Part shown: piece after piece, positions 3,436 through 18,776 of the stretch
How positions within the stretch are numbered: position 1 is the stretch's first letter
How the letters are laid out: every line of letters begins with the position of its first letter
DNA from: Actinomycetota bacterium
Lineage (GTDB): Bacteria; Actinomycetota; Acidimicrobiia; Acidimicrobiales; JAJPHD01
NCBI GenBank assembly: GCA_021325455.1
Contig: JAJPHD010000026.1
Span: 124,001 to 188,000 of the forward strand
Direction: 5' to 3'
Length of the DNA: 64,000 nucleotides
The notes under the pieces: generated by a model
Told to the model about the DNA's origin: nothing
Databases searched by the model: none
What the model saw: only the letters and a program-made list of their open reading frames with translations
Translations under genes and position numbers: made by a program

Positions 3436-3843
3436 ATGACCGCCACCCGGGAAGCACAGGGCGATGGGGTGATGGAGGTCACCGGCATGGCGCCCCGGAA
3501 CTTCCTGCGGGCCTGCCTGCTCCTCCTCCTCCGGGAGCGCCCTGACCACGGCTACGACCTCCTGGCCCGGCTGGGATCGCTGGGCCTGGACCAGGAGGAC
3601 CCCGGGGCGGTGTACCGGACGCTGCGGGGGATGGAGAGGGAGGGGCTGGTGCGCTCGGGATGGGGCGAGTCCTGCTCGGGGCCGGCCCGACGGACCTATG
3701 TGCTCACGCCGTGTGGGGAGCGGGCCCTCCTCTGCTACGGGCGGGCCCTGGACGACTGCCGGAGGACCATCGAGGGCTTCCTCGACCGGTTCCTCGACGC
3801 CGTGGACCCCCTGGACACTCCGCGGGCCGGAGGCGCCCGGTGA
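3436..3843 (+). CDS. PadR-family transcriptional regulator
   Basis: A 135-residue PadR protein: a winged-helix domain with the signature R-P-D-H-G-Y-D-L-L-A-R-L, then G-A-V-Y-R-T-L-R-G-M-E-R-E-G-L-V, followed by a short C-terminal helix that usually mediates dimerisation. AAGGAGG lies 3 bp before the ATG; a second ATG at 3487 with its own GGAGG is an alternative. Its stop overlaps the ATG of the SIS/HypC fusion (ATGA), so it heads the plus-strand hydrogenase-accessory operon. Control of this operon, and perhaps of the hydrogenase, is inference from position. PadR proteins are usually repressors released by a small ligand. Confidence 0.85.
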   Translation: MTATREAQGDGVMEVTGMAPRNFLRACLLLLLRERPDHGYDLLARLGSLGLDQEDPGAVYRTLRGMEREGLVRSGWGESCSGPARRTYVLTPCGERALLCYGRALDDCRRTIEGFLDRFLDAVDPLDTPRAGGAR

Positions 3844-5327
3844 TGACCCCCGCCGCTGTGACCGGCGACCGGGCCGCGGCTGCCTTCGCCAGGCGGCAGG
3901 CCCCTACCCGGGCGGTCGCCGACCAGGCCGGCGCGGTGGCCCGGGCCTGCCGGGACATGGCCGGGCGCTTCCATGGCGGGGGCAAGCTGCTCGTGTTCGG
4001 GTCGGGCACCAGGGCCACCGACGCCCAGCACGTGAGCGTGGAGTTCGTTCACCCCGTCATCGTGGGCAAGCGGGCCCTGCCCGCCCTCACCCTGGCCACC
4101 GATGCCGCCACGGTGAGCGGCCTGGCCCTGGCGGCGGGCCCCGCCGAGGTCTTCTCCCACCAGCTGCGGGCCCTGGCGGCGCCGGCGGACATCGCCCTCG
4201 GGCTCTATGGGGCCGAGCCCGACCCCGCCGTCACGGCCGGTCTCCGGGAGGCCCGGGGCCGAGGGTTGCTCTCCGTCGCCCTGGCCGCCGGCGGGCCGGG
4301 GGTCGTGGAGACGCCGGTCGACCACCTCCTGTCCGTCCCTTCCGAGGACCCCCGCATCGCCAAGGAGGTCCAGGTCACCCTGTACCACGTCCTGTGGGAG
4401 CTGGTGCACATCTTCTTCGAGAGGCCCGGGGCCCTCCCCACCCCCGGCCCTCCGACCTGCGTTACCTGCTCGGACCAGGCCCAGGCCTTCCCCGTGGTGT
4501 CGCTGCTGGAGGGGTCGCTGGCCATGGTGGACACGGGACAGGGGCTGGAGAAGGTGAGCATCGCCCTGGTCGACGCCTGCGTGGGAGACCGGGTCCTCGT
4601 GCACGCGGGCGAGGCCATCGCCGTGGTCCCCCCGGAGGAGGGCGAGCCGGCCTGCCCCGCCGGCCCGGCGGAGCCGCCCGGTGAGGATCTCTCGTCCCTC
4701 TACCCGTTCCTCTACGAGGAGCGCGATGCCGACCCCGATGCCGTGCTGGGCGACGTGGCCCGGTCTACGGCGGCCAAGGCCGAAGAGATCGCCCTCCTGC
4801 GCCAGCAGGTCGGTGAGGCCAAGGCGCACCGCCTGGCCGCCTGCGCCAGCGCCATGGCCCAGGCCTTCGCCGGAGGGGGCCGCCTGCTGGCCTTCGGCAA
4901 CGGTGGCAGCAGCAGCGACGCCCAGGCGGTGGCCCACGCCTTCCTGGACCCGCCCGCCGGCGAGCGGCCCCTCCCGGCGCTCTCGCTCACCAACGACATA
5001 GCGGTGGTGACGGCCCTGGCCAACGACATCGGCTTCGAGGTCGTCTTCGCCCGGCAGGTGGCCGCTTGGGGCCGCCCGGGCGACATCGCCGTGGCCCTCT
5101 CCACCAGCGGGGGCTCGGCCAACGTGCTGGCCGGGATCGAGGAGGCCAAGCGGGCCGGCATGCTCACCGTGGGGCTGGCGGGTTATGACGGGGGCAAGAT
5201 GGCCGAGGCGGCGCTCGACTTCCTCTTCGTCATCCCCTCCTCCTCGGTCCACCGCATCCAGGAGGCTCAGACCACCGTCTACCACGTGCTGGCCGAGCTG
5301 ACCCAGGCCGCCCTGGCCGCCTCGTAG
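3843..5327 (+). CDS. SIS - HypC-like - SIS three-domain fusion protein
   Basis: A 494-residue protein with two sugar-isomerase (SIS) domains flanking a HypC/HupF-like segment. Residues about 1-195 are a degenerate GmhA-like SIS domain (F-G-S-G-T-R-A-T-D-A-Q-H). Residues about 205-265 run C-V-T-C-S-D, a D-T-G strand, then V-G-D-R-V-L-V-H-A-G-E-A-I, which matches the HypC beta-barrel pattern. Residues about 300-494 are a well-kept GmhA-type SIS domain (G-N-G-G-S-S-S-D-A-Q; S-T-S-G-G-S-A-N). Phosphoheptose-isomerase-like genes are known accessories of actinobacterial-type hydrogenase loci; the role is unknown. Co-translated with padR. The genuine stand-alone HypC is encoded separately at 10911-11183. 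Confidence 0.8.
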   Translation: MTPAAVTGDRAAAAFARRQAPTRAVADQAGAVARACRDMAGRFHGGGKLLVFGSGTRATDAQHVSVEFVHPVIVGKRALPALTLATDAATVSGLALAAGPAEVFSHQLRALAAPADIALGLYGAEPDPAVTAGLREARGRGLLSVALAAGGPGVVETPVDHLLSVPSEDPRIAKEVQVTLYHVLWELVHIFFERPGALPTPGPPTCVTCSDQAQAFPVVSLLEGSLAMVDTGQGLEKVSIALVDACVGDRVLVHAGEAIAVVPPEEGEPACPAGPAEPPGEDLSSLYPFLYEERDADPDAVLGDVARSTAAKAEEIALLRQQVGEAKAHRLAACASAMAQAFAGGGRLLAFGNGGSSSDAQAVAHAFLDPPAGERPLPALSLTNDIAVVTALANDIGFEVVFARQVAAWGRPGDIAVALSTSGGSANVLAGIEEAKRAGMLTVGLAGYDGGKMAEAALDFLFVIPSSSVHRIQEAQTTVYHVLAELTQAALAAS

Positions 5328-5387: not shown

Positions 5388-5915
5388 GTGACGGGTTCAG
5401 GCGGCTCGTCCTGGACCGTGGTGCCGGCTCGGTCCAGCGTGCGCATAGAGGCCCGCTCCAGCCTGCACCCCATCCACGGGGAAGGGCGTGACCTCTCGGG
5501 CACGATCGAGGCGTTGGTGGCCGATGGCCAAGTCGACCTCTCGGCTCCCCCCCGGGGGCGCCTCGAGCTGCCCCTGCGCACCCTGGCCTCGGGCAACGCC
5601 CTGTACGACCGCGAGCTGCACCGTCGCATAGAGACCAGGACCTACCCCACAGCGGTCGTGGAGCTCGTGCAAGCCCGGGAGGCAGGTAGCGACCAACGGG
5701 TCCGCCTCGCCCTGGAGCTGACCTTCCACGGCGTCACCCGTCCCTTCGAGGAGGACGTGACGGTCACCCTCCCCGAGGACGGGACCCTCGTGGTGGAGGG
5801 CGAGCACACCTTCGACGTCCGGGACTACGGCATCCAGCCCCCCCGGATCCTCACCTTGCGCGTCTACCCGGAGGTGACCGTCCATGCCCGCATCGTGGCC
5901 GAGCGCCCGGGTTGA
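5388..5915 (+). CDS. YceI family protein
   Basis: A 175-residue protein of the YceI family, an eight-stranded lipocalin-like barrel that binds polyisoprenoid or amphipathic molecules. Recognisable elements are the opening W-T-V-V-P-A-R-S-S-V-R-I, the central T-F-H-G-V-T-R-P strand and the closing strand with D-Y-G-I-Q-P-P. There is no signal peptide, so it would be cytoplasmic. The GTG at 5388 is used because the upstream ATG runs straight into a stop. It sits between the SIS/HypC fusion and hypF, 60 bp after the former; a role in hydrogenase biogenesis or quinone handling is guesswork. Confidence 0.75.
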   Translation: MTGSGGSSWTVVPARSSVRIEARSSLHPIHGEGRDLSGTIEALVADGQVDLSAPPRGRLELPLRTLASGNALYDRELHRRIETRTYPTAVVELVQAREAGSDQRVRLALELTFHGVTRPFEEDVTVTLPEDGTLVVEGEHTFDVRDYGIQPPRILTLRVYPEVTVHARIVAERPG

Positions 5916-6206: not shown

Positions 6207-8603
6207 GTGGGCTCACCCGACACATCCACCGCGCCTCCACGCCCGGTCAGGGTCCAGGTCCGGGTGGAGGGCATCGTCCAGGGCGTCGGGTTCCGGCCCT
6301 TCGTCCACACCCTGGCCACCGCCCTGGGCCTGGCCGGGGTGGTGGGCAACGACAGCCGGGGGGTCTTCGTGGAGGCCGAGGGTGAGGAGGCGGCCGTGAG
6401 CCGCTTCGTGCAGGCCCTGGAGCACGAGGCACCTCCGCTGGCCGTGGTGGAGCGGATCAGCACCCAGGTCCTCCCCCCCACCGGGGCGAGAGGGTTCGTC
6501 ATCGCCATGAGCCCCGCCGGCGGGGAGCGCACCGCCCTGGTCTCCCCGGACGTGGCCACCTGCGACGCCTGCCTGGCCGAGCTGGCGGACCCCGGGGACC
6601 GCCGCTACCGGTACGCCTTCATCAACTGCACGAACTGCGGCCCCCGCTTCAGCATCGTGCGCGACATCCCCTACGACCGGGCCGCCACCACCATGAGCGG
6701 CTTTGCCATGTGCCCCGACTGCGCGGCCGAGTACGAGGACCCCACCAACCGGCGCTTCCACGCCCAGCCCGTCTGCTGCCCCGCCTGCGGTCCCACCCTG
6801 GCCCTGGTGGACTCCGGGGGGCGGCTCCTCGCCGGCGACCCTGCCGGGGCCGGCCCCGGGACCGCCACCGCCCCCGGGGCGCCCGGAGCCGGTGGCGACC
6901 CGGTGGCCCTCGCCGCCCAGCTCCTCCTGGACGGCCAGGTGGTGGCCGTCAAGGGCCTGGGTGGCTACCACCTGGCCGCCCTGGCGGCCGACGAGGCCGC
7001 CGTGGCCCGCCTGCGGGCCCGCAAGCACCGCGAGGACCGACCCTTCGCCCTCATGGCCCCGGACCTGGACTGGGCCCGGCGCCTCGGGCAGGTGAGCGAG
7101 GAGGAGGAGAGGCTGCTCGCCGGCTGGCGCCGCCCCATAGTCCTGCTCGAGCGCCGGGCCGGGGGGGATGCCGGCATCGCCCCCTCCGTCGCCCCCCACA
7201 ACCGCTGCCTCGGGGTCATGCTGCCCTACACCCCCCTGCACCACCTGCTGGCCGACCAGGTCGGCCAGCCCTTCGTGCTCACGAGCGGCAACCTCTCCGA
7301 CGAGCCCATCGCCTACCGCGACGACGATGCCAGGCAGAGGCTGGGGTCGGTGGCCGACTACTTCCTGGTCCACAACCGCCCCATACACACCCGGGTGGAC
7401 GACTCGGTGGCGAGGCTGTGGGAGGGAGCCGAGCTGCCCCTGCGCCGGTCCCGGGGCTACGCCCCCATGCCGCTGCACCTGGTGACCGAGGTGCCCCGCC
7501 CCGTCCTGGGGTGCGGGGCCCAGCTCAAGGCCACCTTCTGCCTGGCCAGTGGCCATCGTGCCTTCATGTCCCACCACATCGGGGACCTCGAGAACTGGGA
7601 GACCATGCGCAGCTACCAGGAGGGGATCAGCCACCTGGAGAGCCTGTTCCAGATCGAGCCCGCCGTTCTCGCCCATGACCTGCATCCCGAGTACCTGTCC
7701 ACCAAGTGGGCCGTGGACCGGGCGGCCAGCGATCCCGGGCTGGCGCTGGTAGCGGTCCAGCACCACCACGCCCACCTGGCCTCCTGCCTGGCTGACAACG
7801 GCGAGGAGGGGCCCGTCATCGGGGTCGTCTTCGACGGCCTCGGCTACGGGGTTGACGGGACCTTGTGGGGCGGCGAGGTGCTGGTTGCCGACCTGGTGGG
7901 CTTCGACCGCGAGGCCCATCTGGAACCCGTCCCCATGCCCGGGGGGGCGGCTGCCATCGCCGAGCCTTGGCGCATGGCCCTTTCCTGGCTGGAGGCTACC
8001 TACGGCGACGACCTGCCCCCGGGCCTGGGGGTGAGGGAGAGGTGGTCGGGGCCCTGGGGGGCGGTCCTGGACATGGCCCGGCGGGGCGTCAACAGCCCCC
8101 TCACCTCCAGCGTCGGGAGGCTGTTCGACGCCGTGTCCTGCCTGTGCGGGCTCCGCGACGTGGTCACCTACGAGGGCCAGGCCGCCGTCGAGCTGGAGCA
8201 GGCCGCCGACCCCACCGAAGAGGGGTCGTACCCGACCGGGCTCCGCCTCGGGGTGCCGGTGCGCCTCGTGGGCACGGACCTGGTGCGGGCTGTCGTGTCC
8301 GACCTGGTGCACCGGGTGCCGGTGCCCACGGTGGCGGGACGCTTCCACAACGGCCTCGCCGACGCCGTGGCCGACCTGTGCGCTGCCATCGGGGCGCGCA
8401 CCGGCCTGTCCACCGTGGCCCTGTCAGGGGGCGTGTTCCAGAACGTCCTCCTCCTCGACCGGGTGGTGGGCCGGCTGAGGCGCCGGGGCCTGCGCGTGCT
8501 CACCCACAGCCGGGTCCCCCCCAACGACGGGGGTATCAGCCTGGGGCAGGTGGCGGTGGCCGGGGCCCGCCTCGCCAGCCGTCCCGGGCCCGGGCCCGGG
8601 TGA
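6207..8603 (+). CDS. hypF: HypF carbamoyltransferase
   Basis: A 798-residue HypF of full length. Domains in order: acylphosphatase (V-R-V-E-G-I-V-Q-G-V-G-F-R-P, residues about 14-100), two zinc-finger-like motifs built from C-x2-C pairs (C-D-A-C, C-T-N-C, C-P-D-C, C-P-A-C, residues about 115-200), YrdC-like domain, and a C-terminal Kae1-like domain with H-H-H-A-H and the D-G-x-G-Y motif. It turns carbamoyl phosphate and ATP into carbamoyl-adenylate and carbamoylates the C-terminal Cys of HypE, the first step to the cyanide ligands of the [NiFe] site. It ends the plus-strand operon and converges on hypE, 47 bp away. Start is GTG. Confidence 0.96.
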   Translation: MGSPDTSTAPPRPVRVQVRVEGIVQGVGFRPFVHTLATALGLAGVVGNDSRGVFVEAEGEEAAVSRFVQALEHEAPPLAVVERISTQVLPPTGARGFVIAMSPAGGERTALVSPDVATCDACLAELADPGDRRYRYAFINCTNCGPRFSIVRDIPYDRAATTMSGFAMCPDCAAEYEDPTNRRFHAQPVCCPACGPTLALVDSGGRLLAGDPAGAGPGTATAPGAPGAGGDPVALAAQLLLDGQVVAVKGLGGYHLAALAADEAAVARLRARKHREDRPFALMAPDLDWARRLGQVSEEEERLLAGWRRPIVLLERRAGGDAGIAPSVAPHNRCLGVMLPYTPLHHLLADQVGQPFVLTSGNLSDEPIAYRDDDARQRLGSVADYFLVHNRPIHTRVDDSVARLWEGAELPLRRSRGYAPMPLHLVTEVPRPVLGCGAQLKATFCLASGHRAFMSHHIGDLENWETMRSYQEGISHLESLFQIEPAVLAHDLHPEYLSTKWAVDRAASDPGLALVAVQHHHAHLASCLADNGEEGPVIGVVFDGLGYGVDGTLWGGEVLVADLVGFDREAHLEPVPMPGGAAAIAEPWRMALSWLEATYGDDLPPGLGVRERWSGPWGAVLDMARRGVNSPLTSSVGRLFDAVSCLCGLRDVVTYEGQAAVELEQAADPTEEGSYPTGLRLGVPVRLVGTDLVRAVVSDLVHRVPVPTVAGRFHNGLADAVADLCAAIGARTGLSTVALSGGVFQNVLLLDRVVGRLRRRGLRVLTHSRVPPNDGGISLGQVAVAGARLASRPGPGPG

Positions 8604-8650: not shown

Positions 8651-9775
8651 TCAGCAGATGCGGGGGAGGGGGTCACCCACCAGCATGTCCACGATGCGGG
8701 TGCCCCCGAAGGCCGTCTTCAGCAGGACCAGCCCCGGCGGGTCCTCGGCCACCCTGCCGATGGCCGCCGCCCCCTCGCCCCCCGGATGGCCGTGCAGGGC
8801 GGCAATGGCGGCCTCGGCCTCCCCGGGAGGGACGATGGCGACGAAGCGCCCCTCGCAGGCCACGTACAGGGGGTCGATGCCAAGGATCTCGCAGGCGCCG
8901 GTGACGGCAGGGCGCACCGGCACCGCCCCCTCGTCCAGGACCACGGCCACCTCGGAGGCCGCCGCCACCTCGTTCACGACGGTGGCCACCCCTCCCCTGG
9001 TGGCGTCCCGCAGGCAGCGCGTCCCCGGGGCGGCGTCGAGGAGGGCCCGCACCAGCCCCCCCAAGGGGGCCGTGTCGGAGGCGATGTCGGCGTTGATGCC
9101 CAGCTCCCCCCGGGCCAGCATGATCGTCACGCCGTGGTCCCCCACCGGTCCCGAGACGATGACGGTGTCCCCCGGCCGGGCCTGGCCGGCGCCGAGGGAC
9201 CCGTCGCCCTCCATGACTCCCACCCCGGCCGTGGTGATGTAGCAACCGTCGCCCTTCCCCCGGTTCACCACCTTCGTGTCGCCGGTCACCACGGAGACGC
9301 CCGCCACCTCGGCCGCCTTGGCCATCGAGGCGGCGATACGGGTGAGGTCGGCCACGGGGAACCCCTCTTCCAGGATGAACGACGCCGACAGGTAGAGGGG
9401 ACGGGCGCCCGAGACGGCCAGGTCGTTCACCGTCCCGTTCACCGCCAGGTCGCCGATGTCCCCGCCCGGGAAGAAGAGCGGCGACACCACGAACGAGTCG
9501 GTGGTGAAGGCCAGCCTGGCCCCCCCCACCTCGAACCGGGCCTGGTCCTCCAACGGCTCCAGCAAGGGGTTGCGCAGTGCCTCGAGGAAGACCGCCTCGA
9601 TCAGGTTGTGGGTGGCCTTGCCCCCCGCCCCGTGGGCGAGGGTGATGCGCTCCTCGGTCACCCGGGGCCGGCGCCGGCGGGCCCGCTCGATGCGGGAGAG
9701 GACCTGCTCCTCCCGGGACAGGTGGGGGGACCCCGGTGCAGCCGGCGTCTCCGTGCCCGGACCTGCCTGGCTCAT
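8651..9775 (-). CDS. hypE: HypE, carbamoyl dehydratase of hydrogenase maturation
   Basis: A 374-residue HypE. It carries the PurM/SelD-like ATP fold: L-A-H-G-A-G-G-K near residue 47, F-T-T-D-S-F-V, G-D-I-G-x-L-A-V-N-G-T-V-N-D, and ends in P-R-I-C, the C-terminal cysteine that receives the carbamoyl group from HypF and dehydrates it to thiocyanate for transfer through HypC/HypD. The first 30 residues are an unusual basic, proline-rich leader before the conserved core; a later start is possible. The ATG overlaps the hypD stop (ATGA). It is the last gene of the minus-strand hydrogenase operon. Confidence 0.95.
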   Translation of the reverse strand: MSQAGPGTETPAAPGSPHLSREEQVLSRIERARRRRPRVTEERITLAHGAGGKATHNLIEAVFLEALRNPLLEPLEDQARFEVGGARLAFTTDSFVVSPLFFPGGDIGDLAVNGTVNDLAVSGARPLYLSASFILEEGFPVADLTRIAASMAKAAEVAGVSVVTGDTKVVNRGKGDGCYITTAGVGVMEGDGSLGAGQARPGDTVIVSGPVGDHGVTIMLARGELGINADIASDTAPLGGLVRALLDAAPGTRCLRDATRGGVATVVNEVAAASEVAVVLDEGAVPVRPAVTGACEILGIDPLYVACEGRFVAIVPPGEAEAAIAALHGHPGGEGAAAIGRVAEDPPGLVLLKTAFGGTRIVDMLVGDPLPRIC

Positions 9776-10899
9776 GCCCGTACCGCCTCTCTCACCCTCA
9801 CCCGGGTGAACCGGCCGAAGTTGTAGTAGGCAGCACAGGCTCCTTCCGAGGAGACCATGCAGGTGCCTATGGGGTTCTCCGGCGTGCAGGCCGTCCCGAA
9901 CACCTTGCACTCCCAGGGCTTCAGCACCCCCTTCAGGACCTCGCCGCACTGGCAGGCCTTGGGGTCGGCCACCCTCACCCCGGGGACCGGGAAGCGGACC
10001 TCGGCGTCGAAGGAGGCGTACCGCTCCCTCAGCTTCAGGGCCGAGTGGGATATGAACCCCAGCCCCCTCCATTCGAAGTGGGGGCGCAGCTCCATCACCT
10101 GGTTCACCACCTTCAAGGCCGTGGCGTTGCCGTCCCAGGGCACGACCCGCTTGTACTGGTTCTCCACCTCGCAGCGGCCCTCGGCCAGCTGGGCCAGGAG
10201 CTGGTACACGGCCTGCAGGATGTCCAGGGGCTCGAACCCCGCCACCACCAGGGGCTTGTGGTGCTGGGCCGCTATCCACCGGTAGGGGCGGCAGCCGATG
10301 ACGGTGGACACGTGGCCGGGGCCGAGGAACCCGTCCAGGCGGAGGTCGGGCGAGTCGAGTATGGCCTTTATGGCCGGGATGATCGTCACGTGGTTGCAGA
10401 AGACCGAGAAGTTCTCGATCCCCTCGGCCTCGGCCCGCAGCAGGGTCATGGCCGTGGAGGGGGCCGTGGTCTCGAACCCGATGGCCATGAAGACCACCTG
10501 GCGGTCCGGGTTGCGCCGGGCCGTCTCGAGGGCGTCCAGGGGCGAGTAGACCATGCGGATGTCAGCCCCGGCGGCCTTGGCGTCGAAGAAGGAGCCGTGG
10601 CTGCCCGGGACGCGCATCATGTCCCCGAAGGAGGTCATGGTCACCTCCGGCCGGGTGGCTATGGCGATGGCGTCGTCCACCCGGCCCATGGGGATCACGC
10701 ACACCGGGCAGCCAGGCCCGTGCACCAGGGTGACGGTCTCGGGCAGGTAGTCCTCGAGGCCGTGCTTGTAGATGGTGTGGGTGTGGCCGCCGCAGACCTC
10801 CATGAACTTGTAGCGGCGGCCCGGCTGGCACAGGGCCGCGATCTGAGCGGCCAGGGCCCGGGCCTTGTCGGCATCCCGGTACTCGTCGACGAAGCGCAT
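9772..10899 (-). CDS. hypD: HypD, Fe(CN)2CO assembly scaffold
   Basis: A 375-residue HypD of normal length. It shows F-M-E-V-C-G-G-H-T-H near the N-terminus, G-P-G-C-P-V-C, and the C-terminal [4Fe-4S] domain with cysteines in C-Q-C-G-E, C-K-V-F-G-T-A-C and G-T-C-M-V-S-S-E-G-A-C. With HypC it holds iron while HypE donates cyanide; the cluster and the conserved thiols act in electron transfer. ATGA overlap with hypE downstream and 11 bp from hypC upstream. Confidence 0.97.
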   Translation of the reverse strand: MRFVDEYRDADKARALAAQIAALCQPGRRYKFMEVCGGHTHTIYKHGLEDYLPETVTLVHGPGCPVCVIPMGRVDDAIAIATRPEVTMTSFGDMMRVPGSHGSFFDAKAAGADIRMVYSPLDALETARRNPDRQVVFMAIGFETTAPSTAMTLLRAEAEGIENFSVFCNHVTIIPAIKAILDSPDLRLDGFLGPGHVSTVIGCRPYRWIAAQHHKPLVVAGFEPLDILQAVYQLLAQLAEGRCEVENQYKRVVPWDGNATALKVVNQVMELRPHFEWRGLGFISHSALKLRERYASFDAEVRFPVPGVRVADPKACQCGEVLKGVLKPWECKVFGTACTPENPIGTCMVSSEGACAAYYNFGRFTRVRVREAVRA

Positions 10900-10910
10900 C
10901 GGACCGCTCC

Positions 10911-11183
10911 CTACCCGATCCTGGACCGGGACAGGGCGGCCAGCTCGTCGGCGTAGGCCTGGCCCATCCCCTCCAGGAACTCGAGGGAGGCCCGGGCCTC
11001 GTCCTCGTCGATCTTGGATAGGGCGAACCCGACGTGTATTAGCACCCAGTCACCGACCTCCAGCCCCTCGTCGGTGACGAGGCCCACGTTCACGGTCCTT
11101 TGGACCCCGCACACGTCCACGCTGGCCAGGTCCGGGCGGTCGGAGAACCGCTCCACCACCTGGCCCGGGATGCCGAGGCACAT
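10911..11183 (-). CDS. hypC: HypC, hydrogenase assembly chaperone
   Basis: A 90-residue HypC. The essential N-terminal M-C-L-G-I-P-G-Q-V-V motif is intact (Cys2 binds the iron complex and the large-subunit precursor), and the barrel ends with V-G-D-W-V-L-I-H-V-G-F-A-L. It shuttles the Fe(CN)2CO unit from HypD to the hydrogenase large subunit. A second, diverged HypC-like domain is fused between two SIS domains at 3843-5327. It is 57 bp downstream of hypA. Confidence 0.96.
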   Translation of the reverse strand: MCLGIPGQVVERFSDRPDLASVDVCGVQRTVNVGLVTDEGLEVGDWVLIHVGFALSKIDEDEARASLEFLEGMGQAYADELAALSRSRIG

Positions 11184-11240: not shown

Positions 11241-11594
11241 TCAGGCCGGCGGCGAGGGGACTGGTGCGTAGGTGAGGGACTCCAGGGTCAGCTCGTCTCC
11301 GCCGGCCAGGGCCACCTCGACCGACCCGCAGGACGGGCACACCGCCAGGGGATCGTTGCTGGACGCCTCGGCCCCGCAGGCGGCGCAGCTCATCTGCATG
11401 GGGACGGTGGTGACCAGGAGCGAGGCGCCGTCGGCCTCGGTTCCCGCCGCCACCAGCTCGAAGGCCTGCCGCAGCGACCCCTCGTCCACGGCATGGGCCG
11501 CCCCCACCCGCAGGGCTACCCGGGACACGGTGCGGCCCGCGGCCCGGGCCCGGACGGCCTGCACGACCCCCTCGCAGAGGCCGAGCTCGTGCAC
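11241..11594 (-). CDS. hypA: HypA, nickel-insertion accessory protein
   Basis: A 117-residue HypA. The N-terminal M-H-E-L motif that binds nickel through His2 is present (GTG start), and the zinc domain has two C-x2-C pairs (C-A-A-C and C-P-S-C) near residues 70-90. It delivers nickel to the large subunit, normally together with the GTPase HypB. No hypB lies next to it or anywhere in the window. It starts 3 bp after the stop of the 34-residue DUF6893-like gene. Confidence 0.94.
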   Translation of the reverse strand: MHELGLCEGVVQAVRARAAGRTVSRVALRVGAAHAVDEGSLRQAFELVAAGTEADGASLLVTTVPMQMSCAACGAEASSNDPLAVCPSCGSVEVALAGGDELTLESLTYAPVPSPPA

Positions 11595-15181: not shown

Positions 15182-15738
15182 CCGGCCCTCCGGCGCAGGG
15201 CCACGGGCACCGAGCGGGGTGGGGGGAGCACCGTCTCGGCCTCCACCTCCACCCTGACCTCGGGCACGGCCCGGCGCAGCTCCGCCTCCACCGCCTCCCG
15301 GAGGGCGGCGCCGGGCGACCCGCAACCGTGCCCCGGGGCGGCCAGGCGGAGGTGGACCACAGGCGGCTCCCCCTCCTCGATCCCTACCAGCTCCACCCCG
15401 GCCCCCCTGGCCACCCCGTCCAGGGAGGCCCGGGCCCGCTCCAGCGCCGCTCGCACCCGGGCGGGGAGGTCCAGGGGGTGCAGGTCGTGAAGCACGAGAA
15501 GGCTGGCCACCAGCTGGTCGTCCAGGAAGCGGGCAAAAAGCCCGGTGGCCCCCGGCCCGCTCTCGTCGACGATGGTGAGGATGCGGTGCAGGCCCGCCCC
15601 GTAGAGCTCGACCAGGAGGCGCACCAGCTCGTCCACCTCGGCCCGGGTACGGGGATCGGCGTGCGACCCGAGCTTGGTGACGAGCGCCTCGATGCGGTCG
15701 CCGACCTCCCGCAGGTGGGCGTCCTCCGGAGTCGTCAC
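15178..15738 (-). CDS. NifU-like protein of the hydrogenase cluster
   Basis: A 186-residue protein with a helical N-terminal half (residues 1-90) and a C-terminal NifU/Nfu-like domain (residues about 110-170). The Nfu domain normally carries C-x2-C for a bridging Fe-S cluster; here the corresponding loop reads H-G-C-G-S-P with a single cysteine, so cluster binding by the usual mode is doubtful. NifU-like genes are regular members of actinobacterial-type hydrogenase operons. GTG start overlaps the hhyL stop, and its own stop overlaps DUF5947. Confidence 0.75.
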   Translation of the reverse strand: MTTPEDAHLREVGDRIEALVTKLGSHADPRTRAEVDELVRLLVELYGAGLHRILTIVDESGPGATGLFARFLDDQLVASLLVLHDLHPLDLPARVRAALERARASLDGVARGAGVELVGIEEGEPPVVHLRLAAPGHGCGSPGAALREAVEAELRRAVPEVRVEVEAETVLPPPRSVPVALRRRAG

Positions 15739-17528
15739 CCCTGGTGGACGGAGGTGGGGGAATGGTGCTTCTCGATCACCTTCCCGTTGCCCAGGTACAT
15801 GTGCACGCCGCAGGGCAGGCAGGGGTCGAAGCTGCGCACGGCCCGCATGATGTCGATCCCCTTGAAATTGTCGGGGCCGTTCTCCTCGAAGATGGGGGTG
15901 TTCTGCACGGCGTCCTCATAGGGCCCCGGGGTGCCGTAGACATCCCTGGGGTTGGCGTTCCAGGGCGTGGGTGGGTAGGGGTGGTAGTTGGCGATCTTGC
16001 CGTCCCGGATCACCAGGTGGTGGGACAGCACCCCCCGGACGGCCTCGGTGAACCCGCAGCCGATCCCCTCTTCGGGCACGGTGAAGGGCTCCCAGGTCCT
16101 GGTTCGCCCGGCCCGCAGCTCGGCCAGGGCCTTCTCGATGAAGTAGAGGGCGCAACCGGCGGCGTAGGCCTGGAAGTAGGTCCGGGCCCGGTCCCTCTCT
16201 ATGGCATTGCTCCACTGGGGGATCTTCCACTCCAGGGTGACGGCCGGCTTGAGGGCGGTGCGGGGCAGGTTGATCTGCACGCTGCTCCCCGTGGCCTTCA
16301 CGAACCCGATGTCGACCAGGCCCGCCAGGGCCGTCGACCACAGGCGGGCGATGGGGCCCCCGCCGGTGTCCAGGGCCAGGTAGTCGTTGCCGTCGTACCA
16401 CCTCGGGGACATGACCCAGGAGTAGCTGCCGGAGAAGTCGCGCTTTTGCGGCTTGGGGATGGTGTGCTGGTTCCACGGGTGGCGCTCGTCCACCGGGTTC
16501 CCCAGAGGGTCGGTGGTGACGAACCTTTCCATCCCCTCCCAGTCCTGGTAGTAGGAGCTGCCGAGGAGGATGCGGATCCCGAGGTTGATCTCCACCAGGT
16601 CGTTGGTGTGCAGGCGGCCGTCGATCACGACCCCCGGGGTCACGAACATGCGCCGGCCCCAACTGGTCATGTCCCGGTAGTTGAAGTTGCACACCTCGGG
16701 GTCCTGGAAGCTTCCCCAGCAGCCCAGGAGGACACGGCGCTGTCCCACCTTCTCGTAGCCGGGCAAGGCCTGGTAGAAGAAATCGAAGAGGTCGTCGTGC
16801 AGGGGGACGACCCTCTTCATGAACTCCACGTAGCGCATTAGACGCGTGTAGTAATCGGTGAACACCTGGACGCTGGCCGGTGTGCCGATGCCGCCCGGAT
16901 AGAGGGTGGAGGGGTGGACGTGGCGGCCCTCCATGAGGCAGAACATCTCCCGCGTCATACGGCTCATCTGCAGGGCCTCGCGGTAGAACTCCCCTTCGAA
17001 GGGGTTGAGCGAGCGCATGATGTCGGCGATGGTCCGGTAGCCGTGGTCCCCGGCATGCGGGGCCTCGGTGCGCTCGGCCTGAGCCAGGACACCGGGATTG
17101 GTGGCCGCCACCATCTTCTCGCAGAAGTCCACCCCCACCAGGTTCTCCTGGAAGATGTTGTGGTCGAACATGTACTCGGCGGCCTCACCCAGGTTGAACA
17201 TCCACTCGGCGATGTCGGGCGGCTTCACCCCGTAGGCCATGTTCTGGGCGTAGCAGGAGCAGGTGGCGTGGTTGTCGCCGCAGATGCCGCAGATGCGGCT
17301 GGTGATGAAATGGGCGTCCCGGGGGTCCTTGCCCTTCATGAAGATGCTGTAGCCGCGGAAGATCGACGACGTGCTGTGGCACTCCGCCACGACCTTCTGC
17401 TTGAAGTCGATCTTGGTGTAGATGCCCAGGCTCCCCACGATCCGGGTGATGGGGTCCCAGGCCATCTCCACCAGGCCCTCGGAGGGTTCCCTGCCCGTCC
17501 CCGCTGGCCTGGCCTCAGTCGTCGTCAT
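15735..17528 (-). CDS. hhyL: [NiFe]-hydrogenase large subunit, group 1h type
   Basis: A 597-residue large subunit. The L1 motif R-I-C-G-I-C-G-D-N-H-A-T-C gives the first nickel thiolates (Cys80, Cys83) and the L2 motif D-P-C-L-P-C-G-V-H gives Cys570 and Cys573. After the final His576 there is a 21-residue tail that the maturation protease should remove. The G-D-N-H-A-T-C variant, and N-L-G-E-A-A-E-Y-M-F-D-H, are features of the actinobacterial high-affinity group 1h enzymes that oxidise atmospheric hydrogen. It lies 69 bp after hhyS with AAGGAGGAGG before the ATG. Transcribed with all downstream accessory genes to hypE. Confidence 0.95.
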   Translation of the reverse strand: MTTTEARPAGTGREPSEGLVEMAWDPITRIVGSLGIYTKIDFKQKVVAECHSTSSIFRGYSIFMKGKDPRDAHFITSRICGICGDNHATCSCYAQNMAYGVKPPDIAEWMFNLGEAAEYMFDHNIFQENLVGVDFCEKMVAATNPGVLAQAERTEAPHAGDHGYRTIADIMRSLNPFEGEFYREALQMSRMTREMFCLMEGRHVHPSTLYPGGIGTPASVQVFTDYYTRLMRYVEFMKRVVPLHDDLFDFFYQALPGYEKVGQRRVLLGCWGSFQDPEVCNFNYRDMTSWGRRMFVTPGVVIDGRLHTNDLVEINLGIRILLGSSYYQDWEGMERFVTTDPLGNPVDERHPWNQHTIPKPQKRDFSGSYSWVMSPRWYDGNDYLALDTGGGPIARLWSTALAGLVDIGFVKATGSSVQINLPRTALKPAVTLEWKIPQWSNAIERDRARTYFQAYAAGCALYFIEKALAELRAGRTRTWEPFTVPEEGIGCGFTEAVRGVLSHHLVIRDGKIANYHPYPPTPWNANPRDVYGTPGPYEDAVQNTPIFEENGPDNFKGIDIMRAVRSFDPCLPCGVHMYLGNGKVIEKHHSPTSVHQG

Positions 17529-17597: not shown

Positions 17598-18641
17598 TCA
17601 CCACCTGGGGTGGTAGCCGGTCGTGAGCTCGGTGCTGCGCCTGCGCCACTTGGGCTCCTTCTCGGCCGTCCTCCAGGTGAAGCTGCGCAGCCCCGTGATG
17701 GCCTTGCCGTAGAGCCCGCTGGCTGCGGCAGACACCTTGGCTCCCGGGGGCTCGTCCATGAACGGCATGAACTTGTCGGGGAACCCCGGCATGGTGCAGC
17801 CGATGCATATGCCCCCCACATTGGGGCAGCCCCCCACCCCGCCGGTCCAGCCCCGCTTGGGCACGTTGCACTTGACCACCGGCCCCCAGCAGCCCAGCTT
17901 GACCAGGCACTCGACCTGCCCGTACGCGCTGGCGAACTGGCCCTGCTCGTAGTACCCGCCCCGGTCGCAGCCCTCGTGGACGGTTCTGCCGAACAGCCAC
18001 TGGGGCCGGAGGGAGTCGTCCAGGGGGATCATGGGGGCGGCCCCCGTGGCCTGGTAGAGGAGGTAGAGCAGGGTCTCCGAGAGGTTGTCGGGTTGGATGG
18101 GGCATCCCGGGACGCACACGATCGGGATCCCCGCCGAGGACCGCCAGCTCCAGCCCAGGTAGTCCGGGACCCCCATGGCCCCGGTGGGGTTGCCCTGCAT
18201 GGCATGGATGCCCCCGTAGGTGGCGCAGGTCCCGACGGCCACCACCGCCCAGGCCCTGGGGGCCAGGACGTCGATCCAGTCCGAGAAGGTCATGGGCTGG
18301 TCCGTCCCCGGCCTGTTGCCGAACCCCGTCCAGTACCCCTCCGGCTTGATCCTCTCGTTGGCCACCGAGCCCTCGAGCACCAGCACGAAGGGGTCCAGCT
18401 CCCCGGCCGCCGCCTTGTGGAAGTACTGGATGAAGTCGTCCCCCACGTCCATGTCGATGAGCGGCCAGTGGATGTCGAGCCTCGGGAGGCCGGGCAGGGC
18501 GCCGAGGGCGATCTCCTCGATGGTCGGCTGGGTGGCGTTGGTGAGGGCCACGGAGTCGCCGTCGCAGCCCAGCCCGGCCGGGATCCAAAGGACGTGGACG
18601 GTGGTGGCCATCTGCTCCTTCTCGACGGTGACGTCCGACAT
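17598..18641 (-). CDS. hhyS: [NiFe]-hydrogenase small subunit, group 1h type
   Basis: A 347-residue small subunit with no Tat signal peptide, as expected for group 1h. It should bind three iron-sulfur clusters and pass electrons from the active site. The proximal-cluster motif reads G-C-D-G-D (Cys26, Asp29) where most enzymes have C-x2-C; an Asp ligand was reported for the Ralstonia actinobacterial-type enzyme. Further ligands are in V-G-T-C-A-T-Y-G-G, V-P-G-C-P, H-x-x-C-D-R-G, and C-P-N-V-G-G-I-C-I-G-C. I chose the ATG at 18641 because GGAAGGAG stands 9 bp before it; longer starts at 18650 and 18674 exist. First gene of the 11-gene operon. Confidence 0.94.
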   Translation of the reverse strand: MSDVTVEKEQMATTVHVLWIPAGLGCDGDSVALTNATQPTIEEIALGALPGLPRLDIHWPLIDMDVGDDFIQYFHKAAAGELDPFVLVLEGSVANERIKPEGYWTGFGNRPGTDQPMTFSDWIDVLAPRAWAVVAVGTCATYGGIHAMQGNPTGAMGVPDYLGWSWRSSAGIPIVCVPGCPIQPDNLSETLLYLLYQATGAAPMIPLDDSLRPQWLFGRTVHEGCDRGGYYEQGQFASAYGQVECLVKLGCWGPVVKCNVPKRGWTGGVGGCPNVGGICIGCTMPGFPDKFMPFMDEPPGAKVSAAASGLYGKAITGLRSFTWRTAEKEPKWRRRSTELTTGYHPRW

Positions 18642-18776
18642 GCGCCCCATCTCCTTCCCGTCGAGGTTCCCCACCCAGGCGGCAGGCGAGGACCAGCTCC
18701 GCTGCCAGGGTACGACGCAGCGGACGGGCCGGTAAGTGACGGGCGCACATAAGATCCGCCGCCCCAGGGAGATCCA

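Follow-up and report, generated by a model that had tools for sequence, protein, structure and literature searches.

Group 1h [NiFe]-hydrogenases are tied to the uptake of atmospheric hydrogen by soil bacteria. In canonical HypC, one of the proteins of hydrogenase maturation, the N-terminal Met-Cys carries the Fe(CN)2CO group. Under oxic conditions formyl-THF is the substrate from which HypX forms the CO ligand (PMC12134894), and the structure of HypX has been described (PMC6802093). Not all high-affinity hydrogen oxidisers have hypX (PMC4767420), which agrees with our own sample of 38 group 1h genomes, most of which lack a detectable hypX. How [NiFe]-hydrogenases obtain their CO ligand when HypX is absent has been named as an open question, for anaerobic organisms (PMC12134894). 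GmhA, whose fold the SIS domains considered here share, binds zinc through H61, E65 and H183 of one monomer and Q175 of its neighbour (PMC5387315; also PMC5705639). gmhA-like genes beside hydrogenase genes have been mentioned or drawn for M. smegmatis, S. erythraea and Acidobacteria, and a 68-gene 'SIS domain' neighbourhood cluster appears in the literature. In the literature we covered, which leaves most subscription journals outside, this gene appears only as an uncharacterised neighbour: we found no study of its role, and no description of a HypC-like partner, a split site or a relation to hypX.

The window, by which we mean the whole 64,000-nucleotide stretch of DNA that was analysed, contains an open reading frame of 494 codons (3843..5327, forward strand) in which three parts follow one another: a GmhA-like domain, SIS1 (residues 1-195; 3843..4427, forward), a HypC-like barrel (residues 206-268; 4458..4646, forward) and a further SIS domain, SIS2 (residues 286-494; 4698..5327, forward). 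Pfam finds SIS_2 twice in the protein (E 2.2e-26), a profile comparison with the PDB matches SIS1 to GmhA (2xbl, E 8e-34), the barrel is delimited by Pfam, its model, PDB matches and a family motif, and SIS2 by residue mapping. A frameshift does not account for the fusion, because GC at codon position 3 stays at 0.89-0.95 in one frame through all domains and both linkers; this evenness, together with the same part order in relatives, also rules out an error of assembly. Neither HypC proper nor GmhA proper, the 494-residue protein naturally joins the three parts of a conserved module, SIS1, a CxTC-type HypC-like barrel and SIS2, in one chain.

Genes for HypC, HypD, HypE, HypA, HypF and a group 1h hydrogenase all lie within 15 kb of the fusion. 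Immediately upstream is a PadR-family regulator (PadR/PhaQ-like; 3475..3843, forward, own start codon uncertain), which is translationally coupled to the fusion, its stop codon overlapping the fusion start in TGATG; similar PadR genes occur near the module at five other loci (L117, L121, L158, L190 and L191). Downstream, a YceI-like gene (5388-5915, forward), also found within the clusters of L118 and L121, stands between the fusion and hypF (6207..8603, forward). The suggestion that the fusion belongs to the operon of hypF holds as far as the shared strand goes; two small genes intervene, and a shared operon is plausible. On the reverse strand follow hypE (8651..9775, Pfam AIRS/AIRS_C, the coding part of an open reading frame listed as 8651-10279), hypD (9772..10899, inside a SIS-associated HypD clade), a canonical HypC (10911..11183, beginning MCLGIPG, 90 bits) and hypA (11241..11594). 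The separate true HypC noted by the sequence-only reading is present, and it and the fusion barrel are the only two HypC matches genome-wide. Further along the reverse strand, hhyL (15735..17528) encodes a group 1h large subunit with the motifs TSRICGICGDNH and SFDPCLPCGVH, as defined for this group in PMC10080006, and is 80% identical to that of C. necator H16. The small-subunit gene, hhyS (17598..18674, reverse), is conserved next to hhyL in relatives; RefSeq gives genes that match HhyS the name 'hydrogenase expression protein HypE' (WP_011153986.1 is an example), an apparent naming error that affects L137 2252-3307, L141 6226-7305 and L177 9796-10857.

The central claim of the sequence-only reading was that a HypC-like barrel sits between two SIS domains. 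In a full-length model, folded with an alignment of fused proteins only, the SIS domains were well determined and the HypC part poorly (pLDDT 38-69). When residues 200-272 were modelled alone by AlphaFold with 27 relatives, five strands resulted with a mean pLDDT of 86.7, and among PDB structures this model best matched HypC chains solved in complex with HypD and HypE (3vyt_A: TMt 0.87, rmsd 1.3 Å, E 6e-4). Furthermore, a profile search of PDB sequences with the barrel recovered the HypC entries 2z1c and 3vyr, and HupF_HypC (PF01455) matches residues 218-267 with 35.8 bits, above the Pfam cut-off of 28.5. Structure prediction, named beforehand as the check that could overturn the claim, thus upheld a HypC-like barrel in residues 200-272, and profile and fold agree on its position between the SIS domains.

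The barrel is a HypC-fold subfamily and not HypC proper, since its motif differs and it forms a clade apart. The CxxC of the fusion (C206-x2-C209) is internal and replaces the canonical N-terminal Met-Cys. The motif C-x-[TV]-C-[SGA]-D occurs in 80 of 82 relatives of the barrel, none of which begins with MCxxxP, whereas 89 of 91 canonical HypCs from the same loci have MC[LHVI][AGT]xP and none of the 91 has CxTC. The two groups separate with a support of 0.995. Likewise, the NCBIfam HypC model (TIGR00074, cut-off 48) gives 18.7 bits for the whole protein and 22.5 bits for the domain.

A comparison of the two SIS domains enables us to propose how they may work together. In the window, SIS1 retains the metal ligands H63, E67 and H182, but has lost the GGS and STSGxS phosphate loops and has K174 in place of GmhA Gln175. 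SIS2 retains GNGGS (352-356), STSGGS (420-425), Q473 and H481, but has lost the metal His and Glu (A362 and A366). This division is general. When the GmhA zinc and phosphate residues were mapped on 84 SIS pairs, SIS1 had the complete His-Glu-His set in 82, STSGxS in none and GNGGS in 2, with mostly Lys (57) and sometimes Gln (15) at the GmhA Gln position. SIS2 had GNGGS in 84/84, STSGxS in 81/84 and Gln in all 82 readable rows, against a metal His in none and a metal Glu in 3 of the 84. The pattern is fully complementary in 80 of the 84 pairs, the remainder being two broken genes (L063 and L071), one partial (L123) and one degenerate (L105). Of the sequence-only claims about these domains, that of a sugar-phosphate motif kept by SIS2 agrees with the GNGGS and STSGxS found there. 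That of a partial loss in SIS1 is right for the phosphate loops, but mere decay of SIS1 is rejected by the strict conservation of its metal residues.

As the GmhA Gln comes from the neighbouring subunit, pairing SIS1 with SIS2 can restore one complete metal site and no more, and the four zinc ligands and two phosphate loops are complete only for the two domains taken as a pair, not in either subunit. From these residue patterns it is likely that SIS1 and SIS2 form one composite functional site, and we infer that this heteromeric active site is maintained by selection. The best Foldseek matches are GmhA chains, including 5lu5 and 2xbl, and the fused model superposes on double-SIS proteins over ~300-360 residues (Z 24-29), an overlay across both SIS domains that would fit an intramolecular SIS1-SIS2 pairing. 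In an unrooted tree SIS1, SIS2, GmhA and the single-copy SIS proteins encoded in hyp operons of Proteobacteria form one clade each. The single-copy forms have a complete metal set in 6 of 6 cases, with a variant loop, STSGNA, in one, and we found no report of their function in the literature. The tree gives no root for the four clades, and we do not claim the single-copy form as the ancestor.

Scanning genomes yielded 52 loci, most of them from Amycolatopsis, Microbispora, other Actinomycetota and Ktedonobacteria, with one from a Thermoleophilaceae. Nearly all of them have the parts as three adjacent, often overlapping genes in unchanged order, and relatives in Actinomycetota, Chloroflexota and Thermus likewise have mostly adjacent genes within clusters of group 1h or similar hydrogenases and hyp genes. 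The parts take several forms: three separate genes; a SIS1-barrel fusion next to a SIS2 gene, as in mycobacteria and in several representatives of the order to which the window belongs; a SIS1-SIS2 fusion whose barrel lies at another place or was not seen; and the triple fusion. The concern that the fusion might be absent from all relatives has not been borne out, given that the parts are conserved as neighbours and are often partly fused. Fusion of all three is itself rare, being found only in the window and at locus L105 of one further genome (G384), and for this reason we regard it as a local event within a general association. The second example (L105 9374-11119, contig C102 of G384) belongs to another family, has a degenerate SIS1, with Arg for the metal His and Ala for the Glu, and adjoins two hydrogenases that are not of group 1h (39-40% identity). 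In RefSeq, the SIS1-barrel fusion of M. intracellulare is named a HypC-family chaperone.

The majority of SIS-pair loci also hold hyp genes, at least 42 have a group 1h hhyL, and a few (L038, L050, L156 and L162) have no hyp genes within reach. SIS genes also occur in a second type of hydrogenase cluster, in Mesorhizobium, Bradyrhizobium, Sphingopyxis and Mycobacterium intracellulare plasmids, which contains NHL and NifU or Rieske genes and which we take, by gene content, to be Huc-like. The proposed link to hydrogenase maturation is thus well founded, the module clustering with hyp genes and group 1h or similar hydrogenases. The idea of a hydrogenase-specific chaperone also fits, in that the module tracks these hydrogenases and a distinct HypD lineage. 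In the Thermus hyp cluster (L139 11061-11321) a Uxx-star glutaredoxin-like protein directly follows the SIS1-SIS2 fusion gene; a glutaredoxin 3 has been drawn in acidobacterial group 1h clusters (PMC5900883).

The distribution of hypX, searched with C. necator HypX as query, bears on the specific role of the module. Among the 38 group 1h genomes, hypX was found in 1 of the 27 with the SIS module and in 8 of the 11 without it (Fisher p 2.8e-5, a value that ignores kinship). The gene is rare overall (11 of 396 genomes), and the group 1h genomes in this phylum that carry it belong mostly to one genus. One genome (G122) has both, while in two group 1h genomes (G217 and G076) neither was found. A further genome, given as 100% complete (G047; contig C11, loci L148 and L182), encodes a group 1h large subunit of 79% identity, and HypD, the SIS module and HypX were all undetected in that genome. 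In Streptomyces-type loci (L150, L153 and L177) hypX lies immediately upstream of hhySL, the position taken in Amycolatopsis and Microbispora (L023) by SIS1, the HypC-like gene and SIS2. In Bradyrhizobium guangxiense and C. necator, SIS and hypX belong to separate hyp clusters, and none of the examined locus stretches holds the two together. The HypD tree is split in the same way, with a SIS clade set against hypX clades, so that the near-exclusion may reflect shared descent; co-descent of the whole hyp operon accounts for the hypX pattern equally well.

The explanation that we favour, with a probability of roughly 0.6, is a composite-site maturation module, with CO supply as the leading candidate for its specific task. 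That it is a hydrogenase-maturation factor of some kind, part enzyme and part chaperone, we consider very probable. In this model, the module would travel with one HypCDE lineage that serves group 1h and Huc-like hydrogenases. The two SIS domains would pair like GmhA subunits with the active site at their interface, SIS1 providing the metal ligands (His63, Glu67 and His182) and SIS2 the fourth ligand, Gln473, along with the phosphate cradle. The composite site may act on a phosphorylated small molecule, with GmhA-type chemistry leading to a metal-bound enediol. Enediols are the kind of intermediate that releases CO in some dioxygenases; GmhA-type chemistry itself is not known to yield CO. The HypC-like barrel, with its CxxC, would dock on HypD, the apo-large subunit or both, and the product of the composite site could then be used on the Fe(CN)2CO scaffold, its most likely purpose being to provide CO as a ligand where oxygen-respiring cells have no HypX. 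Given the cluster place common to the module and hypX, CO supply is the leading specific role, held tentatively. Slightly more speculative is the form this might take, an O2-compatible source of CO from a phosphorylated sugar or related compound whose barrel passes CO to the HypCD scaffold, and with it the thought that, in most bacteria whose hydrogenases are of group 1h or Huc-like, the module could take the place of HypX without being related to it.

Other readings of the module deserve consideration. The SIS pair might bind a sugar phosphate without turnover and gate the barrel, so that maturation follows carbon status in the manner of the regulator GKRP. One of the best overlays of the model (Z 28.8) is with GKRP, a double-SIS regulator whose structure was determined with fructose 1-phosphate, and the PadR gene coupled upstream would suit a regulatory system. 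However, a pure sensor would have no need of the metal triad, which is intact in 82 of 84 SIS1 domains, and the single-copy forms retain the complete catalytic set. The phosphosugar signal of the sequence-only reading is accordingly possible, although rather unlikely, the retained triad giving better support to an enzyme.

It is somewhat less probable that the barrel is a second HypC, a client-specific carrier for the group 1h large subunit comparable to HybG in E. coli, with SIS domains that only oligomerise. A canonical HypC is usually present beside the HypC-like barrel, HypC paralogues with client specificity are known (PMC9002611), and at L107, L111 and L124, all of the SIS-type HypD lineage, a CxTC barrel stands alone beside HypC/HypD with no SIS in reach. 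What such a chaperone leaves unexplained is the strict division of metal and phosphate residues between the SIS domains, as well as the occurrence of SIS without the barrel in Proteobacteria, where the CxTC barrel is absent near single-copy SIS and therefore dispensable there. An ordinary heptose or sugar isomerase that merely lies near hydrogenase genes would match the gmhA or phosphoheptose isomerase annotation given in M. smegmatis, S. erythraea and Acidobacteria, but is very improbable for a protein fused to a HypC-like domain and recurring with hyp genes across phyla. The curated GmhA equivalog model (TIGR00441) gives 201.2 bits for both domains together against a cut-off of 209.45, and 148, 128 and 130 bits for relatives, and a separate GmhA-like gene occurs in the same genome (L021). 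Cut-offs, gene context and this separate gene lead us to reject ordinary GmhA.

A conserved, partitioned enzyme site together with a HypC-like carrier in these clusters offers a concrete gene for the CO-source question. Apart from CO, the module would be a clear case of one active site split between two related domains, of which the undivided, single-copy form is still extant.

Compared with known systems, the module shares parts with several. With HypC/HybG/HupF (PF01455) it has in common the five-stranded barrel, a Pfam score over the cut-off and the hyp gene context; it differs in the missing N-terminal Met-Cys, its own clade and a score under the NCBIfam HypC cut-off. With HypX it shares the cluster position taken by hypX in Streptomyces-type group 1h loci, and in our sample the two are largely exclusive, a split that the HypD tree repeats. 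Their domains are unrelated, the formyltransferase and enoyl-CoA hydratase-like domains of HypX being absent from the fusion, in which Pfam finds SIS and HupF_HypC only, and CO production is shown for HypX and putative for the SIS module. GmhA and DiaA resemble it in fold and in the zinc-site and phosphate-loop residues of SIS1 and SIS2 combined, whereas here the GmhA site is split over two unlike domains that form separate clades in a hydrogenase context. The single-copy SIS (e.g. C. necator H16_RS31885) adjoins hypC and hypD and has an N-terminal LYPFL as in SIS2 along with VEFxHPV and YHxLWxLVH as in SIS1, but has one domain with a complete site and no CxTC HypC-like partner. Finally, the double-SIS proteins (the GlmS isomerase domain, NagB-II and GKRP) likewise carry two SIS domains in one chain as a pseudo-dimer, and are set apart from the fusion by an identity of only ~8-14%, the lack of a HypC insertion and the lack of any hydrogenase link.
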